A stretch of DNA of 33,848 nt, taken from assembly GCF_000380185.1 (NCBI RefSeq), contig NZ_KB904770.1:1-33848 (forward strand), written 5' to 3'. Under the pieces are notes generated by a model, which did no database searches, was not told the DNA's origin, and worked only from the letters and a program-made list of their open reading frames with translations. The position numbers were made by a program, and so were the translations under genes. Shown in pieces: positions 13,052-32,066 of this stretch. Position 1 is the first letter of the stretch. Each line of letters starts with the position of its first letter. Source of the stretch: Thiofilum flexile DSM 14609 (GTDB lineage Bacteria > Pseudomonadota > Gammaproteobacteria > Thiotrichales > Thiotrichaceae).

Positions 13052-13157
13052 TTGTCTACCTGAAGCCCCAGCTAACCATTATAAGCGAGACTAATGGCTA
13101 GATAAGCTTATTCTCACAGGAACCCATTAATTTGAGCTGAACTTTTTTAACACTGTT

Positions 13158-14174
13158 TTACCATTCTTGCACCAATAACTCCGCTATTTGTACCGCGTTT
13201 AAGGCAGCACCTTTACGTACATTATCAGCCACTACCCATAAATCAAGTCCACACGGGTGAGAATAATCTTCACGAATTCGCCCTATAAACACGGCTTCTT
13301 CATTTGCCGCCTCAGTTACAGGGGTAGGATACCCTTCGTCTTCATTCGCCTCCATGACAGTCACCCCCACCGCTTGTCGTAATAGTTCATAAGCTTGATC
13401 AGTACTCAACTTATGCTCTGTTTCGATGTGTAAGGCTAATGCATCACCAAAGAATACAGGAACCCGGACAAAAGTAGGATTTACACCCAAATGAGGGGAC
13501 ATTAGCAAGCTACGTACCTCCTGCATGAAACGGTTCTCATCGACTGTATAACCATTATCTTGCAGAGCATTAATTTGTGGCAACACATTGAAGGCTATTT
13601 GCTTGGGGTATAACTTAGTATCAATCGGACGCGCATTTAATAATTGTGCCGTTTGATTTGCCAATTCATCAATACCCGCCTTACCAGAGCTTGATACCGC
13701 CTGATAGGACGTAATATTTATGCGCGTAATTTTAGCTGCGTCATCTAATGGTTTTAAAGCCATAAGTGCTTGAATGGTAGTACTAAGCGGATTAACGAGC
13801 ATATTGTGATTTTTATACTCACTTACCGCCGCTGGATTCACCTCTGGAATGACCAAAGGCACCCCTTCCCTACCACTAAAATGACCACTTAAATCAATGA
13901 CTACACAGCCTGCTTGTGCCGCTTCCTCGCCATAGTCAGCCGCTAGATCAGCCTCGATAAAAAAGGCCAGCTCCACCGTGGTGAAATCAAAGGCCTCAAT
14001 ATCCTGCACATCCAAGGTTCGACGACCAAAATCAACGTCCTCATCCCAAAAGGAAACCTTAGCCAAAGCATTGAGCTTTTCTATGGGAAAGTTACGCTCA
14101 GCGAGTAATTCCATCAAGGTCTCACCCACTAAGGTTTTAGCACCTACTACGGCTACCGTATATTTTCTGATCAT
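13158..14174 (-). CDS. usg: Usg-type aspartate-semialdehyde dehydrogenase paralogue without the catalytic Cys
   Basis: The protein (338 residues from the ATG at 14174) has the aspartate-semialdehyde dehydrogenase fold: a Rossmann start VAVVGAKTLVGETLMELL and the dimer domain with RVPVFFGDALALHIETE. The catalytic motif NPNCSTIQ of true Asd enzymes is NPLSTTIQ here, with Ser131 where Cys should be, and the GHS of RVPVFxGHS is GDA. It is therefore unlikely to be an active dehydrogenase and fits the Usg paralogue found between leuB/asd and fimV in other gammaproteobacteria, whose role is unknown. Start: ATG at 14174, with AGGA about 11 nt upstream and 14 nt after the leuB stop; a longer in-frame extension overlaps leuB and is not conserved-looking. 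It is probably the last gene of the leu operon. Confidence 0.88.
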   Translation of the reverse strand: MIRKYTVAVVGAKTLVGETLMELLAERNFPIEKLNALAKVSFWDEDVDFGRRTLDVQDIEAFDFTTVELAFFIEADLAADYGEEAAQAGCVVIDLSGHFSGREGVPLVIPEVNPAAVSEYKNHNMLVNPLSTTIQALMALKPLDDAAKITRINITSYQAVSSSGKAGIDELANQTAQLLNARPIDTKLYPKQIAFNVLPQINALQDNGYTVDENRFMQEVRSLLMSPHLGVNPTFVRVPVFFGDALALHIETEHKLSTDQAYELLRQAVGVTVMEANEDEGYPTPVTEAANEEAVFIGRIREDYSHPCGLDLWVVADNVRKGAALNAVQIAELLVQEW

Positions 14175-14188
14175 CGTTCCTATTTTCC

Positions 14189-15268
14189 TTACGCTCTCAA
14201 TGCTGCAACCACCGCATCGCCCATCTGTGCTGTACCTACGTGCTGACACCCTTCGGTATAAATATCACCCGTGCGAATGCCTTGACTCAGTACTCGCTTG
14301 ACCGCACCTTCAATGCGCTCGGCTAATTGCGGCGCATTTAAGCTATAACGCAACATCATGGCTACCGATAAGATCGTTGCCAAGGGGTTTGCAATACCTT
14401 TGCCTGCAATATCAGGGGCAGAACCATGAATCGGCTCGTACATGCCAACACTCGATTCATTAAGCGAAGCAGAGGGCAACATACCAATGGAACCTGTGAG
14501 CATGGCAGCCGCATCGGATAAAATATCGCCGAAAATATTACCAGTGACTATAACGTCAAATTGTTTAGGGGCGCGGACTAATTGCATTGCTGCATTATCC
14601 ACATACATATGACTTAATTCCACATCTGGATAATCTTTACTCATCTCCGTCACAATTTCACGCCATAGCTCGGTGGCTTCTAGCACATTGGCCTTATCTA
14701 CCGAACAGAGTTTTTTATTGCGCTTCTGTGCCGTTTCAAAACCTGTCTTGGCAATTCGTCTAATCTCTGATTCAGTATAGACCATGGTATTAAAACCACG
14801 CCGTTCTCCGGAGGGTAATACTTCAATGCCACGCGGTTGACCAAAATAAATATCGCCCGTTAATTCACGCACAATCATAATATCTAGATTAGCCACTAAT
14901 TCCGGTTTCAATGAAGAGGCATTTGCTAACTCTTCATATAAAATCGCAGGGCGCAAATTAGCGTATAAACCTAAATCAGAGCGAATCGCCAATAATCCAC
15001 GCTCAGGACGTAAAGAACGCTCTAATTTGTCATATTTAGCCCCCCCCACAGCCCCTAATAAAATAGCATCAGCTTTTTTAGCTAAGGCTTGGGTCGACTC
15101 TGGATAAGGCTTACCTTCAGCATCATAAGCTGACCCGCCAATATGCGCATGCTCTAATTCAAAAGCCAGACTACCCTCATCTTTAAAGACATTCAGTACT
15201 TTCAATGCCTCAGCCACAATCTCCGGCCCAATACCATCACCTGGTAATACTAAAATCTTACTTGTCAT
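14189..15268 (-). CDS. leuB: 3-isopropylmalate dehydrogenase LeuB
   Basis: The 359-residue enzyme oxidatively decarboxylates 3-isopropylmalate with NAD in leucine synthesis. Signatures are [22 protein letters not shown] at the N-terminus, [11 protein letters not shown], the substrate-binding [36 protein letters not shown], the catalytic Lys/Asp region [18 protein letters not shown], and [11 protein letters not shown] near the C-terminus. Length is normal. It lies 14 nt after leuD and 14 nt before the usg-like gene, consistent with one leuCDB-usg transcript. Confidence 0.97.
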
Positions 15269-18510: not shown

Positions 18511-18597
18511 AAGTTATCTCTGCCTCGTATAACCCCCGTGTTGGATCTGCTATCACTGATACACCTACTTCACCAACACATGATCAGTGAAATACCT

Positions 18598-19515
18598 ATG
18601 AGTAACTTATACTTCAATCCGTTGTCGTCTACTCGCACAGCTACCCAAACCTTTTCTAATCAAAACGGTATTAATGCCGTTAATACGAATACGCCAACGC
18701 TGAGTTATAATGATATAGGCAATATTATTATCGCTCAGCTCATTATTCTGTTACTAAATCAGCTATTAGCGCAGCTAAATCAAGCTGGCTCCTTAAACAC
18801 CAATCCGGCACCTGCTCCAGTCCCCGTTCCAACACCTAGACCCACCCCCATTCCTAACCCTAATCCCAACCCTACTCCGGCGACTAAAATCATCGATATT
18901 TACTTATTAGCGGGACAGTCAAATGCAACCGGATTAGGTTCGGCTCGCTTAGAAAAAGCCCTTGAAGCAGAATTAGGCGCTGATACGGATCAACATGAAA
19001 TAAAAGTATTCATTGATGCCGTACCCGGTAGCAATCTATTCGTGCAATGGAAAGCGGATGGAACCGAGAAAAGCCAAACCGATGGCGTGCTGTATCAAAA
19101 CTTTCAGATTCATCTAAAAGACTATCTGGCTAAGGTTCAACACGAGAATCCTAACGCGCAACTGCGACTAGGTGGTATGTTCTGGCATCAAGGGGAATCG
19201 GATGCCTTATCGACTGCGGCCAATCAGGAAGCCTATGGCGATAACCTCACGCGCTTCATACAGGATATACGCGCCACCACAAAGGCTCCCGAACTACCCT
19301 TTATTATTGGGCGCTTAAGTGATAAGCAACAAATGATGACACCCGCGTCCATTGATAAGATTCAACAAGAGCAAGATGAGGTCGATGCAGCAGACCCTTT
19401 AGCGGTGGCGGTTCCTTTAGAGGAGGCTGAAGTCAGCGATATACACTTTACCGGCAAAGGCTATGAGACCATGGCTAAATTATTTGCTCAAGCCTATAAA
19501 GCCAATTTTACCTAA
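18598..19515 (+). CDS. SGNH/SASA-domain esterase-like protein, paralogue 1 of 3
   Basis: The 305-residue protein has four parts: an S/T/N-rich head (1-40), a hydrophobic helix (IGNIIIAQLIILLLNQLLAQL, about 41-61), a Pro-rich linker (about 70-98) and a catalytic domain resembling the sialate O-acetylesterase-like SASA family (DUF303). Ser108 in LLAGQSNA is the likely nucleophile, 196-202 reads WHQGESD, and the C-terminal DIHF (Asp281, His283) would complete the triad. Substrate is unknown; acyl groups on polysaccharides are the usual targets. There is no cysteine and no classical signal peptide. Start: ATG at 18598 matches the MSNLY start of both neighbours and gives the same length as paralogue 2; the in-frame ATG at 18538 is less likely. 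Confidence 0.8.
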   Translation: MSNLYFNPLSSTRTATQTFSNQNGINAVNTNTPTLSYNDIGNIIIAQLIILLLNQLLAQLNQAGSLNTNPAPAPVPVPTPRPTPIPNPNPNPTPATKIIDIYLLAGQSNATGLGSARLEKALEAELGADTDQHEIKVFIDAVPGSNLFVQWKADGTEKSQTDGVLYQNFQIHLKDYLAKVQHENPNAQLRLGGMFWHQGESDALSTAANQEAYGDNLTRFIQDIRATTKAPELPFIIGRLSDKQQMMTPASIDKIQQEQDEVDAADPLAVAVPLEEAEVSDIHFTGKGYETMAKLFAQAYKANFT

Positions 19516-19523
19516 CACGTTAT

Positions 19524-19543
19524 TTTTATCAGGTTTTTATAGC
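19524..19543. repeat. 20-bp repeat upstream of esterase paralogue 2
   Basis: Identical to 18491-18510 and located in the 110-bp gap between paralogues 1 and 2. It shows that the duplication included upstream sequence. Confidence 0.6.
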
Positions 19544-19625
19544 GGACTAGCTCCCACTCTCTATAGCTAAGCCCTGCTGTTAAGTCACTATCATCGTACA
19601 AACCACTACCCATAAGCTGAATATC

Positions 19626-20543
19626 ATGAGTAACTTATACACAACCCCATTGACCTCACCCACTCGAACAGGAACCTCTGTTACTTCCACTCAGAATCCT
19701 ATGAATATGTCTAATTCAACACTGAGCTATAACTATATCGGTAATATTATTATTGCTCAGCTCATTATTCTGTTATTAAATCAACTATTAGCGCAGCTCA
19801 ATCAATCAGGCTCCTTAAACACTAATCCAGCACCTGCTCCAGTCCCTGTCCCCACACCAACACCCAGACCCACCCCGATTCCTAATCCCACTCCTACCCC
19901 TGATCCAGCCACTAAAATCATCGATATCTTTTTATTAGGTGGACAATCGAATGCGGTTCTATTAGGAGCCGATCGCTTAGAAAAAGCGCTTGAAGCTGAA
20001 CTAGGCGCTGATACTGCTCAACATGAGACCAAAGTATTCATCAGTGCCGCAAGTGCTACTAATCTCTATGACCAATGGAAGGCCGATGGTACGGATAGTA
20101 ACCAAGCCGATGGGCCACTCTATAAAAATTTCCAACGTAGCCTAGACAGCTATCTGGCTAAAGTTCAACAAGATAACCCGACCGCACAACTGCGGCTAGG
20201 TGGTATGTTCTGGCATCAAGGTGAATCCGATGCCCTATCAACGGTTGCCAATCAAGAGGCTTATGGGGATAACCTCGCCCGACTGATAAAAGATGTGCGT
20301 GCCACCACCAAAGCCCCCGAACTACCTTTTATTATTGGACGCCTCAGCGATAAACAGCAGCTCATGCCTGCCGCTTCGATTGATAGAATTCAAGCTGAAC
20401 AAGATGCGGTGGATGCGGCAGATCCCCTCGCGGTCGCGGTTCCCTTAGAAACGGCGGAAGTCACCGATATCCATTTCACGGATAAAGGCTATGAAACAAT
20501 GGCTAAATTATTTGCTCAAGCCTACAAAGCTAACTTTACCTAG
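19626..20543 (+). CDS. SGNH/SASA-domain esterase-like protein, paralogue 2 of 3
   Basis: This 305-residue paralogue has the same layout as its left neighbour: MSNLYTTPL start, nearly identical hydrophobic helix, the linker PAPAPVPVPTPTPRPTPIPN, then the SASA-like domain with FLLGGQSNAVLLGADRLEKA, GGMFWHQGESDALSTVANQE, and C-terminal VTDIHFTDKGYETMAKLFAQ. It also lacks cysteine. The catalytic Ser, Glu/Asp and Asp-His residues are all retained, so there is no sign of decay. The head region (residues 10-30) differs from paralogue 1 whereas the helix is almost identical, suggesting the helix is under selection. A hairpin follows at 20557-20587. Confidence 0.8.
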   Translation: MSNLYTTPLTSPTRTGTSVTSTQNPMNMSNSTLSYNYIGNIIIAQLIILLLNQLLAQLNQSGSLNTNPAPAPVPVPTPTPRPTPIPNPTPTPDPATKIIDIFLLGGQSNAVLLGADRLEKALEAELGADTAQHETKVFISAASATNLYDQWKADGTDSNQADGPLYKNFQRSLDSYLAKVQQDNPTAQLRLGGMFWHQGESDALSTVANQEAYGDNLARLIKDVRATTKAPELPFIIGRLSDKQQLMPAASIDRIQAEQDAVDAADPLAVAVPLETAEVTDIHFTDKGYETMAKLFAQAYKANFT

Positions 20544-20556
20544 CCACTCACCCGTG

Positions 20557-20587
20557 ATCGAGCCTAAGACCTGCTGTTAGGCTTGAT
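20557..20587. terminator. Hairpin after esterase paralogue 2
   Basis: ATCGAGCCTAA pairs with TTAGGCTTGAT (one G-T wobble) around a 9-nt loop, 14 nt after the stop codon. The stem sequence ATCGAGCCT recurs after paralogue 3. No T run follows. Confidence 0.5.
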
Positions 20588-20654
20588 CTAACGCTCGTAG
20601 ACAAACATTACTGCTAAATCAAAATGACTAGGCCACTACCCACAAGTTAATATT

Positions 20655-21518
20655 ATGAGCAACTTATACACAACCCCACTCACATCCTCTGTACAACCTA
20701 GTACTCCGATTATCTCCCGTCAGTCCTCTACTCATACGACGAACACTAACTTTCTCACGGCCTTTAACACTCATCCGCAGCTAATGACGCAATTAATGAC
20801 CTTGCTCTTAAATCGTTTATTAGCTCAGATCAATCAACCAACACCGGCACCGACCCCAGCTCCCACACCTACTACAACTCCAGCGACTAAAGTGATTGAT
20901 ATTTACCTACTCGGTGGGCAATCAAATGCGGGGGGATTAGGCGCACCACGCTTAGAAAAAGCACTCGAAACCGAACTAGGGGCGGATACCGCTCAACATG
21001 AAATCAAGGTGTTTAAAAGTACCCAAGGCGGCACCAATCTCTACGCGCAATGGAAAGCCGATGGCACTAATGACAGTCGAGCCGATGGGTCAGTGTATCG
21101 ATCCTTTCAAAAAGACTTAAACAGTTATCTGGCTGAGGTAAAAAAGGATAACCCCAACGCGGACATTAGAATTGCGGGGATGTTCTGGCATCAGGGTGAG
21201 TCGGATGCACTCTCCCCCCTCGTTAATCAAAATGCCTATGGTGAAAACTTAACTCGATTTATCAAAGATGTGCGTGCTACCACGGGTGTAGCGGATCTAC
21301 CCTTTATTATTGGACGTTTAAGCGATAAGCAGCAAATGATGTCGGCTGCCTCGATTGATCGAATTCAAGCCGGACAAGATGCAGCCGCAGCAGCCGATCC
21401 CCGCGCCGTGGCGGTGCCTTTAGAAGAGGCTCAGGTGAGTGGCATCCATTTTACTGGCAAAGGCTATAACACGATGGCAAGCCTATTGGCTCAAGCCTAT
21501 AAAGCCAACTTTACCTAA
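20655..21518 (+). CDS. SGNH/SASA-domain esterase-like protein, paralogue 3 of 3
   Basis: The 287-residue third paralogue is the most divergent. It starts MSNLYTTPLTSS like paralogue 2, but the head and helix differ (LTAFNTHPQLMTQLMTLLLNRLLAQINQ) and the Pro-rich linker is shorter (PTPAPTPAPTPTTTPATK). The catalytic domain keeps IYLLGGQSNAGGLGAPRLEK, GMFWHQGESDALSPLVNQNA, IIGRLSDKQQMMSAASIDRI and VSGIHFTGKGYNTMASLLAQ. In the last motif the Asp before IH is Gly, while paralogues 1 and 2 have DIH; whether a triad Asp is supplied elsewhere is open. It also has no cysteine. A hairpin at 21530-21559 separates it from convergent cysK. Confidence 0.78.
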   Translation: MSNLYTTPLTSSVQPSTPIISRQSSTHTTNTNFLTAFNTHPQLMTQLMTLLLNRLLAQINQPTPAPTPAPTPTTTPATKVIDIYLLGGQSNAGGLGAPRLEKALETELGADTAQHEIKVFKSTQGGTNLYAQWKADGTNDSRADGSVYRSFQKDLNSYLAEVKKDNPNADIRIAGMFWHQGESDALSPLVNQNAYGENLTRFIKDVRATTGVADLPFIIGRLSDKQQMMSAASIDRIQAGQDAAAAADPRAVAVPLEEAQVSGIHFTGKGYNTMASLLAQAYKANFT

Positions 21519-22913: not shown

Positions 22914-23666
22914 ATGGTTCATTATACCTGTGCCTCACCACAACCCTATGTGTTTGGTAGTGAGTTTGCCCTTTTGACCGAAACTATTAGCCAACTAGGT
23001 TTCGATGGCGTGCTTTACTCGTTCTACCCTAAACCTATGTATCTTAATAGCAAGATTCAACCTGTGCTACACTACTCTAATGTTCTGGCTCCTTTTGTAG
23101 CACATTACATTAAAAATAATTATGGCAATCATGATTTTGTCTTACGTCTTATTTTACAAAATCGTAAAAAAAAGCCTATTGATTGGTGGGAAGAAATTAA
23201 TGCGGATCATGTAACCTCTGAGGAAAGAGTAGTTACTGAAGATGCTAGGCAAAACTTTGGAATTTACTACGGCCTTTCTATACCAGCACTCCACGGTACT
23301 TATGCGGTTGCGGGTATTTCTGTGATTAGCCAAAATCCCTGTGCTACTCATTTTCAACAGCTAAAAAGCTTACACATGGATAAACTTTTTGAGCTATCCA
23401 GTCAATACCATGCCAAAATCATTAACTCTAGAGAGGAATTGCGTTTTTTCCTACTACCCCTATTGCAGGGATTAAATGAAACTCAGAAAAAAGTAGTCAA
23501 ACATACTCTAGAGGGTTTACCTATGAAGGCTATACCTACAACTTATGGTATTACACCCAAATATGCCGAAAAGGTTTGGAGTAATATTCGTAAAGAGTTC
23601 GGTGATATCACTACCAACGAACTCATTTATATTATGGGTATGGTCGATTTATACGAGTACCTATAA
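22914..23666 (+). CDS. LuxR-type solo regulator with divergent ligand-binding domain
   Basis: The 250-residue protein has a two-domain LuxR layout. Residues 1-170 resemble an autoinducer-binding domain (FDGVLYSFYPKP, PIDWWEEIN, and YYGLSIPALHGTYAVAGISVIS, which recalls the GISIPLHG motif). Residues about 188-248 resemble the LuxR helix-turn-helix (LNETQKKVVKHTLEGLPMKAIPTTYGITPKYAEKVWSNIRKEFG). The conserved Trp/Tyr/Asp/Pro residues that bind acyl-homoserine lactones are not in clear register, so ligand and even ligand binding are uncertain. No luxI-like gene is in the window. Its possible targets are itself and the downstream outer-membrane-type gene, 344 bp away. Confidence 0.65.
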   Translation: MVHYTCASPQPYVFGSEFALLTETISQLGFDGVLYSFYPKPMYLNSKIQPVLHYSNVLAPFVAHYIKNNYGNHDFVLRLILQNRKKKPIDWWEEINADHVTSEERVVTEDARQNFGIYYGLSIPALHGTYAVAGISVISQNPCATHFQQLKSLHMDKLFELSSQYHAKIINSREELRFFLLPLLQGLNETQKKVVKHTLEGLPMKAIPTTYGITPKYAEKVWSNIRKEFGDITTNELIYIMGMVDLYEYL

Positions 23667-24010: not shown

Positions 24011-24658
24011 GTGATAATTATGCGTGAGTTGCGATGTTTAGTATTGATTGGTTTGTGTTTCCCTAGTGTCTTGTTGGCGGGTGGTCTGAGTGCTCGCCCT
24101 TTTTCTGTCCAAGTTTCTTATACCCAAGTGAAGCCTAAGGCACAGCTTGATACCGCAGCACTTTCTGGGCTGGGGTATTCCGCGCTGAGTGCGGGTGTCA
24201 GCCGCAAGAAGGATAGTGCTGAGGTGTTGTTTCGTTATAAGCCCAATCGTTTCAGTGTTGATTTGGGCTGGGCGTATTTGGGTAAGGCCGATGTACAACT
24301 GAGTCTGACTCCACCTATAGGACGGACTGAGCAGCAAATTGCTCAGGAGGTGGGGGATGCGATTAAACACACGCCAACTGGGGATCAGGTGTTATTGGGG
24401 GTGACTTATCATCATCCGGTCGATACGCGCACTGAGTTTAATATTGGTGTGGGTGCGTATAGGCCACTCAAGGATAATCCCTTTAAGGTGACGGTGAATG
24501 GGAATGAGTATGGCACTAGTGCTAAGCAGACTAAGGCTTGGGTGCATGTCGGCGGGGCTTGGAAGTTAAAGCCGAATCTGGCGTTTGTGATGAATGCCGA
24601 ACGCTTTGATAACACGAGGTCTTTGGATCGGGTTTGGGGCTTAGAATATCGTTCCTAG
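24011..24658 (+). CDS. Putative small outer-membrane beta-barrel protein
   Basis: The 215-residue product starts with a signal peptide (MRELRCLVLIGLCFPSVLLAGG; the ATG at 24020 is as plausible as the one at 24011). The mature part shows alternating hydrophobic and polar residues typical of beta-strands: FSVQVSYTQVKPKAQL, SAEVLFRYKPNRFSVDLGWAYLG, DQVLLGVTYHHP, TEFNIGVGAYRP, KAWVHVGGAWKLKPNLAFVMNAE, and a last strand DRVWGLEYRS. This fits an OmpA/OmpW-like eight-strand barrel, but the terminal residue is Ser and not the usual Phe. I do not recognise a specific family. Its base composition matches the chromosome, unlike the genes from 24893 onwards. Confidence 0.55.
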   Translation: MIIMRELRCLVLIGLCFPSVLLAGGLSARPFSVQVSYTQVKPKAQLDTAALSGLGYSALSAGVSRKKDSAEVLFRYKPNRFSVDLGWAYLGKADVQLSLTPPIGRTEQQIAQEVGDAIKHTPTGDQVLLGVTYHHPVDTRTEFNIGVGAYRPLKDNPFKVTVNGNEYGTSAKQTKAWVHVGGAWKLKPNLAFVMNAERFDNTRSLDRVWGLEYRS

Positions 24659-24691
24659 TCGTTTTTTTGCGAGTTTCATGAGGTGATAGTG

Positions 24692-24890
24692 ATGCGTTTT
24701 TTTAGTCATGGGTTGTTGATTATTTTTCTGGTGTTCTTTTTGAGCTTGTTGTGGTGGCGCTAGTGTGACTACTACCACCTCTAGTGATACCCCCTTGCCT
24801 GTTATTACCCTAAAGGGGACTAGTTCCGTTACTGTTAATCAAGGCAGTACTTAATCCTATAGTACAGATAACCCTAAAGGTGCTATCACA
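24692..24890 (+). pseudogene. Decayed lipoprotein gene with a DUF5011/Ig-like start
   Basis: ATG at 24692 opens a 23-codon lipoprotein-type leader (MRFFSHGLLIIFLVFFLSLL) ending at TAG 24761. In the next frame, from 24747, the reading continues CCGGASVTTTTSSDTPLPVI and then TLKGTSSVTVNQGST before a TAA. The CGG after the hydrophobic leader is a typical lipobox, and PVITLKGxxSVTVNQGST is the usual opening of DUF5011-type Ig-like repeats. A one-base loss near 24746 and a stop at the following Tyr position would explain the break. In the same frame, SYSTDNPKGAI follows the stop. Only this 5' remnant survives; the AT-rich genes begin directly after it. Confidence 0.6.
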
Positions 24891-24892
24891 AA

Positions 24893-26380
24893 ATGCTATA
24901 TCCTCTCAATTGGTTATATGAAAGTCTAGTTCGCTCTAAGCATTTGCAATTGGTAATGATATGGGTATTTGTCATTATAACATATCTAACAACAATAAAC
25001 GGAGTAATAGGCTATATTTTTGGATCAATAAAAAATGCATCTTATCTTGATATACTTTTATTTTCAGTTCCATTGTTTTTTATTCAAGCATTTATTTTAA
25101 TTAAGGCCACGCATGAGGTTTTTGATTGGAATAATGGATTTTTATTGAGTAAAATTATTTGGTTAATATTATTAATATTTTCTTTTTTATTTAGTGCATT
25201 TTTTAGTTACACTTTTTACTATCGACTGATGAGTGCAGAAGCATACAGTAATAAAATATTAGAAGAGCAAATTAACAGCATTAAAAATAATATTTACTCT
25301 TATAATAGCTCATTTTCTTTGGTAAAAGATTTAATGATTAATTTAGCAGAGTACTCAAAAAACAAAGCTGATATTGAGAAAAAAGAGGGAGGCACCTGTG
25401 GCGACAATTCAACACCAAAACCAGGCCCAAGGAGTCGCTACAGAGTTAATGAAGAGAAAGTATTTACAGCTCAAGCAAAAAATATTGAGCTACTATCAAA
25501 AAAAGTTGAAGAGCAAAACAAATTATTCTTATCTTACATAAAAAACTATCCATCAAACGATATAAAAACAATAAATCAACTTGAGGAAAAAATGAATCAA
25601 ACTGTCAATACTTTAAATAATTTTAATGAGAGTAATCCGACTATTGAAAGTACACATCAGACACTTAATGAGCATTATAAAGAAAATAGGAAAACTAACG
25701 AAAAAAATAAAGAAGGAGTTATTATAGCATGCCCTGACTCCGAGATAGATAATAAAATTGATATCATTTTTAAAAGCTTTAAGGCTCTTCCAATGCTTGA
25801 AAAAGTCAAATTATTTGATCAAACAAACACAAGAGAATTACAAGAAAGAGTTTTTGATATTGTAGCTAGTTTAACATCCAAAGAAACTAACGATGATAGT
25901 ACAAAATTCACAATTAATGATTATATTGCACTTATACTAGGTTTTCTAGTAGAAATACTAATAATATCAATAAGTTTTATTTACCATCGTGAAAATAAAA
26001 ACTATATAAGGTTAGATAGACGTGGTAACTATAAGGGGAAATTTTTCTCTACAAAAGATTTTATTGACATAAATAATACCTTGAACTGTAGTATAAATTC
26101 AATTAAGAGTGAAATTAACTCTGCTCATCAATTAGACAAAGGAGTAATAATAGTAAAATCAAAAGATGATGATAATCATATTGTAAGGTTGTTAAAGATC
26201 AAAACCCCATCAGAAGAATTTCATAATATATCCTATAAAAAAACACTACCAGATTTTATCGGAAAGATGGAATCCAACATAAGTGATAATGAGGGTAAAC
26301 TGGTATCTGTTTATTTCTTCCCAAGAATGGTTTGGAGAGATATAGAGCTTTCCTTTCAACATTTAAATGATGTAGTATAA
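24893..26380 (+). CDS. Four-helix membrane protein with a large, probably periplasmic, helical loop
   Basis: I do not recognise this 495-residue protein. Hydrophobic helices lie at about 19-43, 52-71, 84-110 and 343-364. Between the third and fourth is a charged, helix-prone loop (about 111-342) with coiled-coil character (AQAKNIELLSKKVEEQNKLF, INQLEEKMNQTVNTLNNF) and its only two cysteines before the fourth helix, Cys169 and Cys280. The positive charges after helix 4 (HRENKNYIRLDRR) put the 130-residue C-terminal domain in the cytoplasm and therefore the loop in the periplasm; the cysteines could form a disulfide. It is followed after 2 nt by the PBP-like gene, so the two probably form one unit. 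Ile ATA and Arg AGA/AGG codons are common here, unlike in the flanking chromosome, which points to transfer. Confidence 0.7.
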   Translation: MLYPLNWLYESLVRSKHLQLVMIWVFVIITYLTTINGVIGYIFGSIKNASYLDILLFSVPLFFIQAFILIKATHEVFDWNNGFLLSKIIWLILLIFSFLFSAFFSYTFYYRLMSAEAYSNKILEEQINSIKNNIYSYNSSFSLVKDLMINLAEYSKNKADIEKKEGGTCGDNSTPKPGPRSRYRVNEEKVFTAQAKNIELLSKKVEEQNKLFLSYIKNYPSNDIKTINQLEEKMNQTVNTLNNFNESNPTIESTHQTLNEHYKENRKTNEKNKEGVIIACPDSEIDNKIDIIFKSFKALPMLEKVKLFDQTNTRELQERVFDIVASLTSKETNDDSTKFTINDYIALILGFLVEILIISISFIYHRENKNYIRLDRRGNYKGKFFSTKDFIDINNTLNCSINSIKSEINSAHQLDKGVIIVKSKDDDNHIVRLLKIKTPSEEFHNISYKKTLPDFIGKMESNISDNEGKLVSVYFFPRMVWRDIELSFQHLNDVV

Positions 26381-26382
26381 TT

Positions 26383-29088
26383 ATGAGCAACTCATACTGG
26401 AGCTTAAAAAAACATGGGCATAGCTTAAAAATAAAGGAGTTGGTTTACTTAAGCAAACTAAAGCTCAAAAAAATATCTAACTCTATAGAAGAAGAAATAT
26501 GGCTACGATCGCTACGATCATCTCAGAATGAAAGCAACTTGTATGGAAAAATTGTATTACCTACTAAGTATATAATTAATACTTTTGATACATCATTGCT
26601 TTTACTAAAAGAGTTTTTTCAACTCGGAACGACCACTTTACTGACCCCGGTTAAGCTTCCTAGGGAAGCAAAAATACCACCACCACGCACAATAAGAAGA
26701 CCAAGCTGGTTAACATATACAGCAATTGTACTTATACTTATTTTAGCCCTACCAATATTATTAATATTGGTACAATTAATGTATCTTTCATCTCCACCTA
26801 ACGAGGCAAATAAAAAATTTCTTCTTAAACTTCATCAGTATAGAACTGCAATTGCAGTAAGAGATACAAAAAATAATCTTATTGGAATCATGCCATCTAA
26901 TAAAAAATCACCTGATAACTTTATTGATCATGATAAAGATGGAGAGTATAAAATTTCTCTCAATAGGCCTGAGTCTCTATATGTAGATGAGATTCCTGAT
27001 TTTTTCTGGCGTGTTTTAAAACAAAGAGAAGGTAGAAATATCTCATTTAATAATAGCTCATTACACTCATATAAAGGAATTGATTTGGTATCATCATTAA
27101 AAATTCTAATTGGTAAAGGCGGGGGAAGCTCCCCAATGAACCTAATAACCAAAACTTTATATGGGAGTTCTTACTTTGAGATTGAACGAAATCGCTCTAA
27201 AGAATGTGGGTTTCCACTCAACAAATCTGCAAAATTATGTCGGAAACTAGTTGAGTATAGAAGTGCAAAAGACTTATTTCCATATCTGGCAAAAAATGAT
27301 GGTCAAGAGTTTAAAAGATGGAGCGCAATGCATGTACCTATTATAACTGGTGTTCATGGTGATTTAATAGGAATACAAGCTGCATCTGCTGTTCTTTTCG
27401 GGAAAAAACCATCAGATTTAAATTTAGCACAGCAAGCTATATTAGCTGCTGCCTATTATCAGCCTCTTTTATTTAGGGGTGATAGTGAAAAAGTTAGTGT
27501 ATCAGGAGAGGAGTACAAAGCGTTAAGATCATTCTGTAAAGATAAAGAAAATAATCCTGATGAGCAAAAATCACTTCCACTCACTCTGACCACAATATTA
27601 GAAGAAAAGAATAAAGATTTATTAAACTCAAGTCCAAATGATCTATGTATAATACAGAAAACAAACATACCAAACCAACGATGGAGAAATAGAATTAATG
27701 CTGCACGTAAGGTTATAGAGATGATGGGCGATCAAATATCAGCTATGGAGCGTAATATCATTGATAATCAATTTTCTCAATTAGAAGATGCTCCCTTTTA
27801 TCCAGAAATACCAAGTGATCTTAAAGAATTTTTTTATGAAGATGGCGATAAAAATGAAAAAACAGATAGAACAAAAATTTATGCGAACTTAAGCTCTAGG
27901 CTTGATTATTTTGCAAATGGGCTTAAAGACTTAATAAGAATAAACCTAGTCAAAATGGGCTTAGATGACTCCGAATCAATATCTGAAATTAGGCTTTCAT
28001 TACCACTCGCCGATGATTATAAATTTAGGAGAAACATAGATAACGCTTTAGCAAAACTATCTAATAATTTTAAATTTAATAAGTTTCTCCCACTTAATAA
28101 AGAGAATCCAAAAGATCATAATAATGCCAGTATCAGAGTATCTGTTTCCGATATAAAAGGAAACTTAGTAAGGTATTATAGAAGGGAGGGAGCAAGTGCT
28201 ATTGAACAAAAGATAGGACTGAACAAACCACTACGTCCAATTGCCAGTATTGCAAAGATACCAGCATTACTATATCTGCTAAGTAAAGGTGACAAATTAG
28301 ATACAAAATATTGCAATGAGTATTATCACGGCAGAGCCAATGCTGGTAGAGATAAAGGAGTACAAGACTGCTCAGTCAAGTTCACATTGCTTGAAACGAT
28401 TGCCCAATCAAAAAACCTACCATTGATCTGGGCATTAAATAAAAAAAGGCCAAGCCATAATGAGATTGATGCTCTTTACTCAAACCTAGCCATAACCAAC
28501 GAAAATGGAAAAGACATCAATGCAAAACTTGAGGATATGAGTTTTGGAAGCTTGATGGAAACTCCAAGCTACACACACGACTTAATTGATAGTGTTATGA
28601 GCTTCATAGCAGGCAAAAATGATGGTCACGAAATTCACTTAATTAATCAGACCACAATTGTTCATTACGATAATGATCTTCAAACCGAAGCAAAAAACAA
28701 TGATTACTTAAGTGGAAATAAAAATCATAAGAACAATAATCCAATTTCACCGATACAGATTGATAAATATATAACCACTCAAGAGCAAAAAGAAATGCTA
28801 TTAAAAGCCCTTGAGTCCCCGATCACTCACCCCAAAGGAACATTGCATTTCGCAACCAAACTAAAGGGTGGTAAAGTTATCATTGGCAAAACAGGAACCT
28901 ATGATACAGATGCTCGTAACATAAAAGATAAGTATGCCATAGGTTCTTTAAAAATAAATGATAAAATCTATACATTTTCTATTTTAGTAGGATCAGAAGA
29001 TTACGCTGGAGATGGACTGATAAAATCGATTAGATCAGAAGACATATTCAAGCCAATATTGCAGGAGATTATTAACAGCTTTAAATAA
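26383..29088 (+). CDS. Class A PBP-like protein: eroded GT51 domain plus transpeptidase domain
   Basis: This 901-residue protein has a cytoplasmic head (1-108), one membrane helix (about 109-135) and a periplasmic part. Residues about 195-365 align with GT51 peptidoglycan glycosyltransferases only loosely: the EDxxF motif reads REGRNISF (Glu216), GGSTITQQ reads GGGSSPMNLI (246-253), although LNLAQQAILAAAYYQP is family-like. The C-terminal half has all three penicillin-binding motifs: SIAK (Ser622, Lys625), SKN (676-678) and KTGT (836-839). It may therefore crosslink or cleave peptides in peptidoglycan while having lost or altered glycan polymerisation. The sequence is AT-rich with foreign codon use and is joined by 2 nt to the upstream membrane-protein gene. 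Function of the pair is unknown. Confidence 0.8.
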   Translation: MSNSYWSLKKHGHSLKIKELVYLSKLKLKKISNSIEEEIWLRSLRSSQNESNLYGKIVLPTKYIINTFDTSLLLLKEFFQLGTTTLLTPVKLPREAKIPPPRTIRRPSWLTYTAIVLILILALPILLILVQLMYLSSPPNEANKKFLLKLHQYRTAIAVRDTKNNLIGIMPSNKKSPDNFIDHDKDGEYKISLNRPESLYVDEIPDFFWRVLKQREGRNISFNNSSLHSYKGIDLVSSLKILIGKGGGSSPMNLITKTLYGSSYFEIERNRSKECGFPLNKSAKLCRKLVEYRSAKDLFPYLAKNDGQEFKRWSAMHVPIITGVHGDLIGIQAASAVLFGKKPSDLNLAQQAILAAAYYQPLLFRGDSEKVSVSGEEYKALRSFCKDKENNPDEQKSLPLTLTTILEEKNKDLLNSSPNDLCIIQKTNIPNQRWRNRINAARKVIEMMGDQISAMERNIIDNQFSQLEDAPFYPEIPSDLKEFFYEDGDKNEKTDRTKIYANLSSRLDYFANGLKDLIRINLVKMGLDDSESISEIRLSLPLADDYKFRRNIDNALAKLSNNFKFNKFLPLNKENPKDHNNASIRVSVSDIKGNLVRYYRREGASAIEQKIGLNKPLRPIASIAKIPALLYLLSKGDKLDTKYCNEYYHGRANAGRDKGVQDCSVKFTLLETIAQSKNLPLIWALNKKRPSHNEIDALYSNLAITNENGKDINAKLEDMSFGSLMETPSYTHDLIDSVMSFIAGKNDGHEIHLINQTTIVHYDNDLQTEAKNNDYLSGNKNHKNNNPISPIQIDKYITTQEQKEMLLKALESPITHPKGTLHFATKLKGGKVIIGKTGTYDTDARNIKDKYAIGSLKINDKIYTFSILVGSEDYAGDGLIKSIRSEDIFKPILQEIINSFK

Positions 29089-31148: not shown

Positions 31149-32066
31149 ATGGGAAACAAAGATATTGTTAGCAAACAAGTACTGAGCCATCTAGCCGCTG
31201 ATATTGCTAATTTATTACTGCATTTAGATGTAGATCTACAGTCAGTTGAATTATTAGATACAGAGCATCAGCGTGTCGAGTTACGTCGTGCCGACTTAGT
31301 GGCTCGGATGCGTAAAAAGCTTACGGGTGAGTCCTTTATCTTACATATTGAAATTCAAAATGCTAATCAGCCTGAAATGGCAACACGTATGTTGCGGTAC
31401 TTTACCGATTTACATCTGCAATACCCACATCAGCCTATCCACCAACATTTGGTGTATATTGGTAAAAAGCCACTAGAAATGGCTGCTGAGATTACTCAGC
31501 CACTATTTACCTATCGTTACGCCATTTTAGATATGCGTACCGTAGATTGCAGTGTGTTACTGGCACAGGATACGCCCGATGCTTTAGTACTGGCTATCTT
31601 ATGTGACTTTAAACAACGCCCTGTACAAGAAATGGTTAATTACATTGTCACGCGTTTAAAAGAATTAACAGCAGAGGATGAAAGTAGTTTCCGCAACTAC
31701 TTTGAAATGCTAGAAACGTTGGCAGATAACCGTGATCTACAATCACATCTGCATGAGGCCAAACAAATGCTAACCCAAGTGAATGTTAAAAAATTTGCCT
31801 CTTATAATTGGGGGCTACAAGATGGTTTGCTACAAGGCATCGAACAAGGTATTGAAAAAGGTATCGAGCAAGGTATTGAACAAGGTAAACAATTAGGCTT
31901 ACAAGAAGGTAAACAGCTAGGACTCGAAGAAGGACAACTACTAAAGGCTCGTGCTATCGCGCGTAAATTATTAAGTGCTGGAACCTTTAGCCTTGAGCAA
32001 ATTGTGGAGTTTGCCGAGCTACCACTAGAAGAAGTATTACAATTGCAGCGTGAGCGCTCTAATTAA
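31149..32066 (+). CDS. Rpn/PD-(D/E)XK nuclease-like transposase-family protein
   Basis: This 305-residue protein resembles the Rpn (recombination-promoting nuclease, 'putative transposase') and related PD-(D/E)XK families. Residues 45-75 contain the candidate nuclease core: RRADLV, followed by SFILHIEIQNANQPEMATRM, where HIEIQ is the usual ExQ/ExK strand. The middle is helical (MVNYIVTRLKELTAEDESSF). The tail (about 223-260) is a run of GIEQG/GKQLG/GLEEG repeats, then ILxxGxFSLEQIVEFAELPLEEV, a common C-terminal module of these proteins. It lies 9 nt after rluD and 18 nt before pgeF, so it was inserted cleanly into a conserved operon and is expressed with it. It is intact. True DNA cleavage is not proven by the sequence. 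Confidence 0.7.
   Translation: MGNKDIVSKQVLSHLAADIANLLLHLDVDLQSVELLDTEHQRVELRRADLVARMRKKLTGESFILHIEIQNANQPEMATRMLRYFTDLHLQYPHQPIHQHLVYIGKKPLEMAAEITQPLFTYRYAILDMRTVDCSVLLAQDTPDALVLAILCDFKQRPVQEMVNYIVTRLKELTAEDESSFRNYFEMLETLADNRDLQSHLHEAKQMLTQVNVKKFASYNWGLQDGLLQGIEQGIEKGIEQGIEQGKQLGLQEGKQLGLEEGQLLKARAIARKLLSAGTFSLEQIVEFAELPLEEVLQLQRERSN

Follow-up and report, generated by a model that had tools for sequence, protein, structure and literature searches.

What does a divergent penicillin-binding protein (PBP) do beside a membrane protein of no named family? The question is raised by a stretch of Thiofilum flexile DSM 14609 DNA (assembly GCF_000380185.1, contig NZ_KB904770.1, positions 1 to 33,848; the whole 33,848 nucleotides (nt) are called the window herein), in which two long and intact open reading frames (ORFs) are separated by 2 nt from the stop of the first to the start of the second. 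We call these genes and their products C0 and C1. An original prediction, made from the sequence alone, had described a membrane protein followed by a protein with class A PBP architecture, had known of no described system with this pairing, and had offered several roles, among them that of a partner dedicated to a specialised PBP. Our analysis partly supports that interpretation. The reading towards which we lean, if only a little, is that C0 and C1 form a co-inherited two-gene cell-envelope module, in which C0 would be the inner-membrane anchor or regulator of C1, a PBP-derived and peptidoglycan-binding protein whose enzymatic role is dispensable.

The idea of a dedicated partner gained support from other genomes, where the original prediction had proposed looking for adjacent homologues. 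C1 was found in 23 places (22 sequences used in a tree and a 60-residue fragment in genome G462), and C0 adjoins it in 19 of them, which span five families from two or more classes, with both gene orders represented. Adjacent pairs are present in the window's own family (the window, G005, G006, G012, G019, G020, G025, G029, G034, G452, G460 and G462, with the adjacency in G020 taken from overlapping contig ends), in family f33, which we take to be Beggiatoaceae partly on gene content (G424, G436, G437 and one of two in G426, where the adjacent C0 is split into two ORFs), and in three further families (G225 in f53, G700 in f213 and G703 in f239); contig ends preclude a call in G026 and G067. 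G700, G703 and G827 are presumably Alphaproteobacteria, again partly from gene content. The order is mostly C0-C1, with C1-C0 in G225, G426 and G703 and a convergent arrangement in G424, and nine pairs overlap by 1-20 nt when ORFs are called from the longest start.

Co-occurrence follows the same pattern. Among 57 relatives, the window's genome included, C1 is present in 10 and C0 in 18, and all 10 genomes with C1 carry C0; in a class-level sample of 369 genomes, C1 is present in 3 and C0 in 4, and the 3 lie within the 4. The raw C1 tallies were 11 and 4, each with one PBP1C, and the apparent C1 matches of G035 and G151, which are of PBP1C type on reading, were dropped from the counts. In a phylum-level sample of 398 genomes, in which only two (C1) or three (C0) candidates were scored per genome, C1 is present in four genomes (E no higher than 1.3e-153) and the match that follows these has E 1.8e-17; 252 of the 398 pass E 1e-8, with partial matches that we presume to be ordinary class A PBPs. 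Six of the 398 match C0 at E 0.001; four of these matches are strong (E no higher than 2.4e-31) and lie in the same four genomes that have C1, and the two genomes with weak ones (G602, G647) have no C1 of that strength. C0 was also found in 27 of 63 genomes of an order-level sample, where C1 was not profile-searched, in 6 of 42 genomes of family f33 and in 2 of 13 of family f53, one of the latter being a weak match in a far longer protein. An initial scan of genome contigs with C1 alone gave no match. The 24 named C0 records comprise 20 from Thiotrichaceae, Leucothrix or Cocleimonas, one from Thiothrix nivea, two assigned only to Proteobacteria and one from Aquificaceae, which is perhaps a mis-binned contig. 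Two groups within the window's family recur in the C1 tree and the C0 tree alike, one uniting G005 with G020/G460 (support 83 and 99) and the other uniting G029/G452 with the Leucothrix type (support 97 and 99).

Class A PBPs are anchored by an N-terminal helix and have their body in the periplasm. C1 has one hydrophobic stretch (residues 107-139, by hydropathy), behind which lie a transglycosylase-like and then a transpeptidase-like domain with SxxK, SxN and KTG motifs, as in PBP1A, PBP1B and PBP1C (PF00912 plus PF00905), and it would be a class A PBP derivative with type II membrane topology. The profile matches are partial yet specific. The Pfam transglycosylase model gave 26.1 bits against a cut-off of 27 (27.3 bits in a whole-genome scan), and the transpeptidase was detected only through the PBP1A model and Foldseek; the homologues L033 and L114 (L denotes a locus) exceed both Pfam domain cut-offs. 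A structure search of the kind that the original prediction had proposed supports the class A architecture, since the best 50 of 448 Foldseek matches of C1 at E 0.001 or below are all PBPs or peptidoglycan synthases (best E 3.8e-8). In sequence searches against solved structures, P0002 gave no match and the A2 profile gave one weak match to PBP1A.

C1 does not belong to the PBP1A, PBP1B or PBP1C subfamily. Its NCBIfam scores are far below the cut-offs for PBP1A (33.4 against 508.75 bits) and PBP1C (21.9 against 494.2 bits), and there is no PBP1B match. In a quick tree, the 22 C1 sequences form one clade apart from PBP1A, PBP1B and PBP1C with support 100; the outgroup consisted of the same genome's PBP1A, PBP1B and PBP1C and two further PBP1C, labelled by reading the sequences. 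The partial profile matches had pointed to PBP1C as the identity of C1, which was rejected as the tree separates the two. Because apparent PBP1A, PBP1B and PBP1C genes, likewise identified by reading, were found in the same genome, ordinary class A PBPs are present there in addition to C1.

C1 also differs from the class A PBPs in its active sites. The transglycosylase motifs (EDxxFxxH, GGSTxxxQ and a second Glu), by comparison with the genome's own PBPs, are not intact in the window's copy (Table 1), and we therefore call it class A PBP-derived rather than a functional bifunctional PBP. The loss of the second Glu says little alone, as the same genome's PBP1C lacks it as well. EFKRW is near-identical in members of the window's family with and without an intact transpeptidase site and looser in other families. 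The transpeptidase triad of SxxK, SxN and K[ST]G is intact in the window, and because of this C1 there would probably still acylate or cross-link peptides, while probably no longer polymerising glycan.

Among its relatives, the triad has been lost repeatedly. Of 22 sequences, 12 keep it intact, nine have lost the catalytic Ser and/or Lys, and in one (G703) only the Asn is replaced, by Ser. Seven of the nine dead copies have lost both Ser and Lys and two (G029, G452) only the Lys; all nine belong to the window's own family, where they fall into two clades with long stems, and parsimony on the C1 tree requires three changes between intact and not intact, one of them being G703. The dead genes are open over the length available. 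The ratio of the proportions of nonsynonymous and synonymous differences (pN/pS) is 0.27-0.37 in seven comparisons among dead copies and 0.29 and 0.31 in two comparisons among active ones. As the dead copies look to be under constraint, about as much as the active ones, they would be pseudoenzymes rather than pseudogenes.

An extra bifunctional peptidoglycan synthase, with C0 as an inner-membrane activator comparable to LpoA or LpoB, is one alternative. Four relatives (G225, G426a, G700, G827) keep the transglycosylase Glu, a GG/GAS(S/T)..Q-type motif and the full triad, and the Pfam transglycosylase score is above cut-off at L088, L118, L160 and L164, all of which such an enzyme would explain. 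It is nevertheless unlikely, as the pairing has survived the loss of both sites in many members of the window's family, and as the transglycosylase of the window's copy is itself degraded. LpoA and LpoB are outer-membrane lipoprotein activators of PBP1A and PBP1B (PMC3060616). Like them, C0 would be a partner protein dedicated to a class A PBP; unlike them, it has four membrane helices and no lipobox, with no Cys before residue 169, and its gene lies beside that of its PBP.

Of C0, which the original prediction had described as a membrane protein with two cysteines before its last helix and a large, predicted periplasmic loop, the first part was found as stated and the second is probable. Hydropathy gives four hydrophobic stretches (residues 17-44, 49-73, 80-110 and 339-366), with Cys169 and Cys280 before the last and a third cysteine, Cys399, after it. 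A corresponding pair, spaced by 102-124 residues, is present in 35 of 35 C0 sequences listed and makes up the sole cysteines in 18 of them; this set, a few members of which are cut by contig ends, does not include, among others, L119 (split), L087 (a fragment) or the two most distant members, L165 and L166. Since the pair is conserved across the family, it suggests a Cys169-Cys280 disulfide and hence a periplasmic position for the loop between the third and fourth helices. The mean charges of 20 C0 homologues fit the positive-inside rule with the N-terminus inside, the 230-residue loop outside and the C-terminus inside: lysine plus arginine averages 2.4, 1.4 and 4.0 in the inner stretches and 0.2 in the short first outer loop, and the window's C0 has six such residues after its fourth helix. 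Charge and cysteines together thus point to the topology that we propose.

The structure model of C0 (mean predicted local distance difference test score (pLDDT) 74.9, predicted template modelling score 0.53) shows the loop as a helical bundle. The protein is not named by Pfam, NCBIfam, PHROGs or PADLOC and has no Foldseek match at E 0.001 or below. VIA structural matches of residues 115-308 are to generic helical bundles only, with Z up to 9.9 for TorS and 13.1 for designed bundles, not above the level for unrelated bundles, and a sequence search against solved structures returned coiled-coil noise only. A relation to alpha-xenorhabdolysin A, indicated by a weak model match (4.4e-4) of one of 20 C0 sequences, was taken as coiled-coil chance and set aside. 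PADLOC-DB, a library without systems after 2023, matched none of its families to the window's C0 or C1 or to any of the 20 C0 sequences of alignment A8.

The receptor-like layout of C0 raises the alternative of a sensor for beta-lactams or muropeptides, in which the PBP-like domain would bind the drug or peptidoglycan fragment and C0 would relay the signal to its cytoplasmic domain. TorS-type four-helix sensor bundles share the bundle topology of C0 residues 115-308 and are among its weak, unspecific structural matches; unlike TorS, C0 has no kinase domain in Pfam. Beta-lactam receptors of the BlaR/MecR type carry a membrane metalloprotease domain, and neither C0 nor C1 has a Pfam match to one. 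We consider a sensor decidedly improbable, given that homologues without Ser and Lys could not, on general chemical grounds, be acylated by beta-lactams, that Pfam finds no peptidase or kinase domain in either protein, and that, away from the Leucothrix-type loci, the pair has no further gene family as a recurrent neighbour.

For the envelope module of an anchor or regulator and a peptidoglycan-binding protein, we propose the following mechanism. C1 would be held in the membrane through its N-terminal helix and extend into the periplasm, where the disulfide-stapled helical bundle of C0 would bind or position it, and the cytoplasmic C-terminal domain of C0 may link the complex to something inside the cell. 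The conserved job of C1 would be to bind peptidoglycan or a precursor and to hold, or report on, that ligand, which we think likely because the pairing outlasts catalysis; the several relatives that have lost their active sites would act as peptidoglycan-binding or structural subunits. More tentatively, and as a possibility that we think on balance does not hold, C0-C1 may be a non-enzymatic cell-wall system altogether, in which a pseudoenzyme PBP that lost first its glycosyltransferase and then its transpeptidase serves as the peptidoglycan-binding subunit of a disulfide-stapled membrane receptor or scaffold, common to Thiotrichaceae, the presumed Beggiatoaceae and a scatter of genomes from a second, probably alphaproteobacterial, class, with the C0 family able to swap its PBP for other partners (SrfB/SrfC).

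In four Leucothrix-type genomes, C0-C1 lies at one conserved place downstream of recD and recB, one gene away in two of them, which fits a vertically inherited pair. In all four Leucothrix-type loci that extend far enough, C1 is followed by a gene with OmpA and BON domains, and a coiled-coil DUF4332 gene is likewise found after the pair (identified with Pfam at L036 and L046 and by profile at the others); C0, C1 and these two are possibly a four-gene envelope cluster. In G013, an OmpA+BON gene directly follows an unpaired C0. C0 genes of the clade without an adjacent C1 are often beside apparent rluD, HAD phosphatase and sppA genes or beside glyQ/glyS, and others vary. On contig 1 of G012, a distant C0 (L055:7312-8877) stands directly after SrfC-like, SrfB and coiled-coil genes, which recalls the SrfABC cluster (SrfB PF07520, SrfC-like PF10139; PMC6950479); unlike in that cluster, C0 in the window has a PBP as its partner, and SrfB was not found in the window's genome. 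Among the 57 genomes, SrfB was found only in G012 and G048, and no C0 lies near the G048 copy. Given these OmpA+BON, SrfB and other neighbours, C0 is probably a component of the envelope, with C1 as its most frequent partner gene but not an obligatory one.

Several further loci of the C0 family were recorded. The G012 row (L055:419-10873) holds the SrfC-like gene, SrfB, a gene for a 415-residue coiled-coil protein and the distant C0, with an IS66 transposase gene nearby. Very distant C0-like proteins of 736 and 822 residues are encoded at L166:6795-9005 and L165:100-2568 (E 2e-6 and 3e-8), the first near a P-loop-like gene (GPKKGGKTS) that Pfam does not recognise. Second C0 copies lie at contig ends in L049, L149, L050 and L053, those of L049 and L149 ending in low-complexity tails of repeated KETKET or KEQKEQ. 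In G425 (L116:7545-11914), C0 is flanked by two AAA_14/DUF4143 ATPase genes, and a large condensation/AMP-binding gene of non-ribosomal peptide synthetase type comes next.

A number of observations weigh against the module as we propose it. The structure model of C1 is poor (mean pLDDT 49.8). The short loops of the window's C0 depart from the family charge pattern, with one lysine or arginine outside and none inside in the second loop, and the window's pair has no adjoining OmpA gene. The pN/pS of active copies is similar to that of dead ones, and the ratios of nonsynonymous to synonymous substitution rates (dN/dS) of 0.07-0.13 in three computable comparisons of dead copies are rough because dS is near saturation. 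The two genes of the second G426 pair are 3 kb apart, and those of G827 are on separate contigs. C0 occurs with no C1 seen near it in G131 of the class sample and with none within the 19 kb read in G425, and eight of the 18 C0 genomes among the 57 gave no C1 in a single-sequence search, which can miss relatives; because many C0 genes occur without C1, C1 is not strictly needed by C0. Finally, the deeper forks and the internal order of the Leucothrix type are discordant or without resolution between the C0 and C1 trees.

Table 1. Features of the C0-C1 locus and of the Leucothrix-type loci. Positions refer to the window unless a locus is given.
Feature	Position	Strand	Basis
C0 gene, 495-residue membrane protein of an unnamed family	24893..26380	+	ORF; matches in 18/57 genomes, own included
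C0 helices TM1-TM3 (TM, transmembrane helix), residues 21-109	24953..25219	+	hydropathy, model helices
C0 loop, residues 110-340, helical bundle, putatively periplasmic	25220..25912	+	model helices; mean charges of 20 homologues
C0 GGTCG motif with Cys169	25388..25402	+	Cys invariant in A8 (20 rows); Cys pair in 35/35
C0 CPD motif with Cys280, probable disulfide partner of Cys169	25730..25738	+	at least 90% conserved in A8 (20 rows)
C0 TM4, residues 341-366, then positive stretch and C-terminal domain	25913..25990	+	hydropathy, charges
C1 gene, 901-residue divergent class A PBP-like protein	26383..29088	+	ORF; PBP profiles; Foldseek; own clade, support 100
C1 single N-terminal membrane helix	26710..26790	+	hydropathy; model helix 110-136
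C1 transglycosylase motif 1, RE-G-R: Glu retained, Asp replaced by Gly, insertion before GID	27025..27036	+	alignment with same-genome class A PBPs
C1 transglycosylase motif 2, GGGSS: Thr and Gln of GGST..Q lost	27118..27132	+	alignment with same-genome class A PBPs
C1 EFKRW at canonical motif 4 place; Glu of PBP1A/1B absent	27307..27321	+	alignment
C1 SxxK, SIAK (Ser622-Ile-Ala-Lys), transpeptidase nucleophile motif	28246..28257	+	alignment
C1 SxN, SKN (Ser676-Lys-Asn)	28408..28416	+	alignment
C1 KTG, KTGT (Lys836-Thr-Gly)	28888..28899	+	alignment
Possible lipoprotein-gene remnant, ending about where the AT-rich block starts	24690..24890	+	frames with stops
OmpA+BON and DUF4332 genes, directly after C0-C1	L036:5413-8255; matching places in L038, L039, L040

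How the pair came to lie in the window is suggested by its composition. GC content is 27.8% in C0 and 33.4% in C1, as against 37.7-49.8% in the 24 other window genes examined; ATA accounts for 66 of 137 Ile codons in the pair and for 47 of 428 in those genes, and AGA/AGG for 38 of 55 Arg codons as against 32 of 404, which confirms the AT-richness and codon bias first noticed in the sequence. In seven other loci, the GC content of the pair is at most about 5.5 points from that of the surrounding DNA (45.5/45.6% against 44.5% at L036, with the largest gaps at L033 and L088), and the unusual composition is therefore a property of the Thiofilum copy. The simplest reading is that C0-C1 was gained laterally in the window's lineage. 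A donor for the pair is not nameable, as its position is unsupported in both the C1 and the C0 tree (support 15 and 23). The original prediction had also placed a decayed lipoprotein gene ahead of the pair. At 24690-24890, where stops are present, one frame encodes a hydrophobic leader and a different frame reads Cys-Gly-Gly-Ala-Ser..., which fits; Pfam gave nothing specific, leaving the lipoprotein identity unconfirmed and a broken lipoprotein gene plausible. It is preceded by an open 215-residue ORF (24011-24658) without a Pfam match. This possibly broken gene and the foreign codon use would suit a recently acquired pair that is heading for decay and functionless in this genome; of the readings weighed here we give this one the least probability, as both ORFs are full length, the C1 triad is intact and C0 retains its two conserved cysteines.

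A strictly defined mobile element, to which the original prediction had thought the pair possibly tied, was not borne out: the window holds no tRNA and no convincing flanking repeats, although not every window gene was scanned for integrases. The repeats flanking the pair are only short and probably due to chance, one of them a 16-nt, 94% repeat pair (24567 and 29790) sitting in flanking coding sequence. Scans for promoters and terminators gave no more sites than shuffled controls. A plasmid origin was rejected as no plasmid relative was found, and a viral origin as there are no relatives in viral contigs or PHROGs and no C1 relative in phage records.

The same searches speak against the phage-defence role that had been proposed. 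As a competition or defence module, C0 would sense phage or envelope attack and C1 would damage or remodel the wall, and the patchy distribution, the foreign composition in the window, the CHAT and DUF5677 genes near the G700 pair and a NACHT ATPase gene upstream of the pair in G436 could all be taken that way. With no PADLOC match, no viral or phage relatives, no Pfam hydrolase family in C0 or C1 and, in four genomes of a single genus, a fixed location close to recD/recB, we regard such a module as very unlikely. The G700 genes (L164:2954-6826 and 13155-14456) lie around C0-C1.

Elsewhere in the window, a LuxR-type protein with an autoinducer-binding domain (PF03472, 5e-14; GC 37.7%) is encoded at 22914-23666, upstream of the pair, and three paralogous genes stand in a row at 18538-21518, the middle one matching the SASA carbohydrate esterase family. 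The gene at 31149-32066, directly after an rluD-like gene, encodes a protein with a Gly/Gln-rich repeat towards its end and a weak, sub-cut-off match to PD-(D/E)XK transposases (E 0.023).

In line with the original prediction, no description of the C0-C1 pair was found in our searches of the open-access literature, nor one of a catalytically inactive class A PBP. A PBP with a partner is itself a known kind of system; what is unusual is that a partner which is maintained has lost catalysis repeatedly. Class A PBPs serve as drug targets, and the usual view of them is as enzymes. If our reading is true, a clade that keeps the PBP fold, apparently under constraint, after the loss of its active sites would show the fold in a structural or sensory role. 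The C1 clade offers natural intermediates along such a path, with the transglycosylase degraded and the transpeptidase intact, with the Lys lost and the Ser kept, and with both lost. Together, the conserved cysteine pair and the conserved pairing would give the new C0 family its first testable role in the envelope, for example in Leucothrix and the presumed relatives of Beggiatoa.

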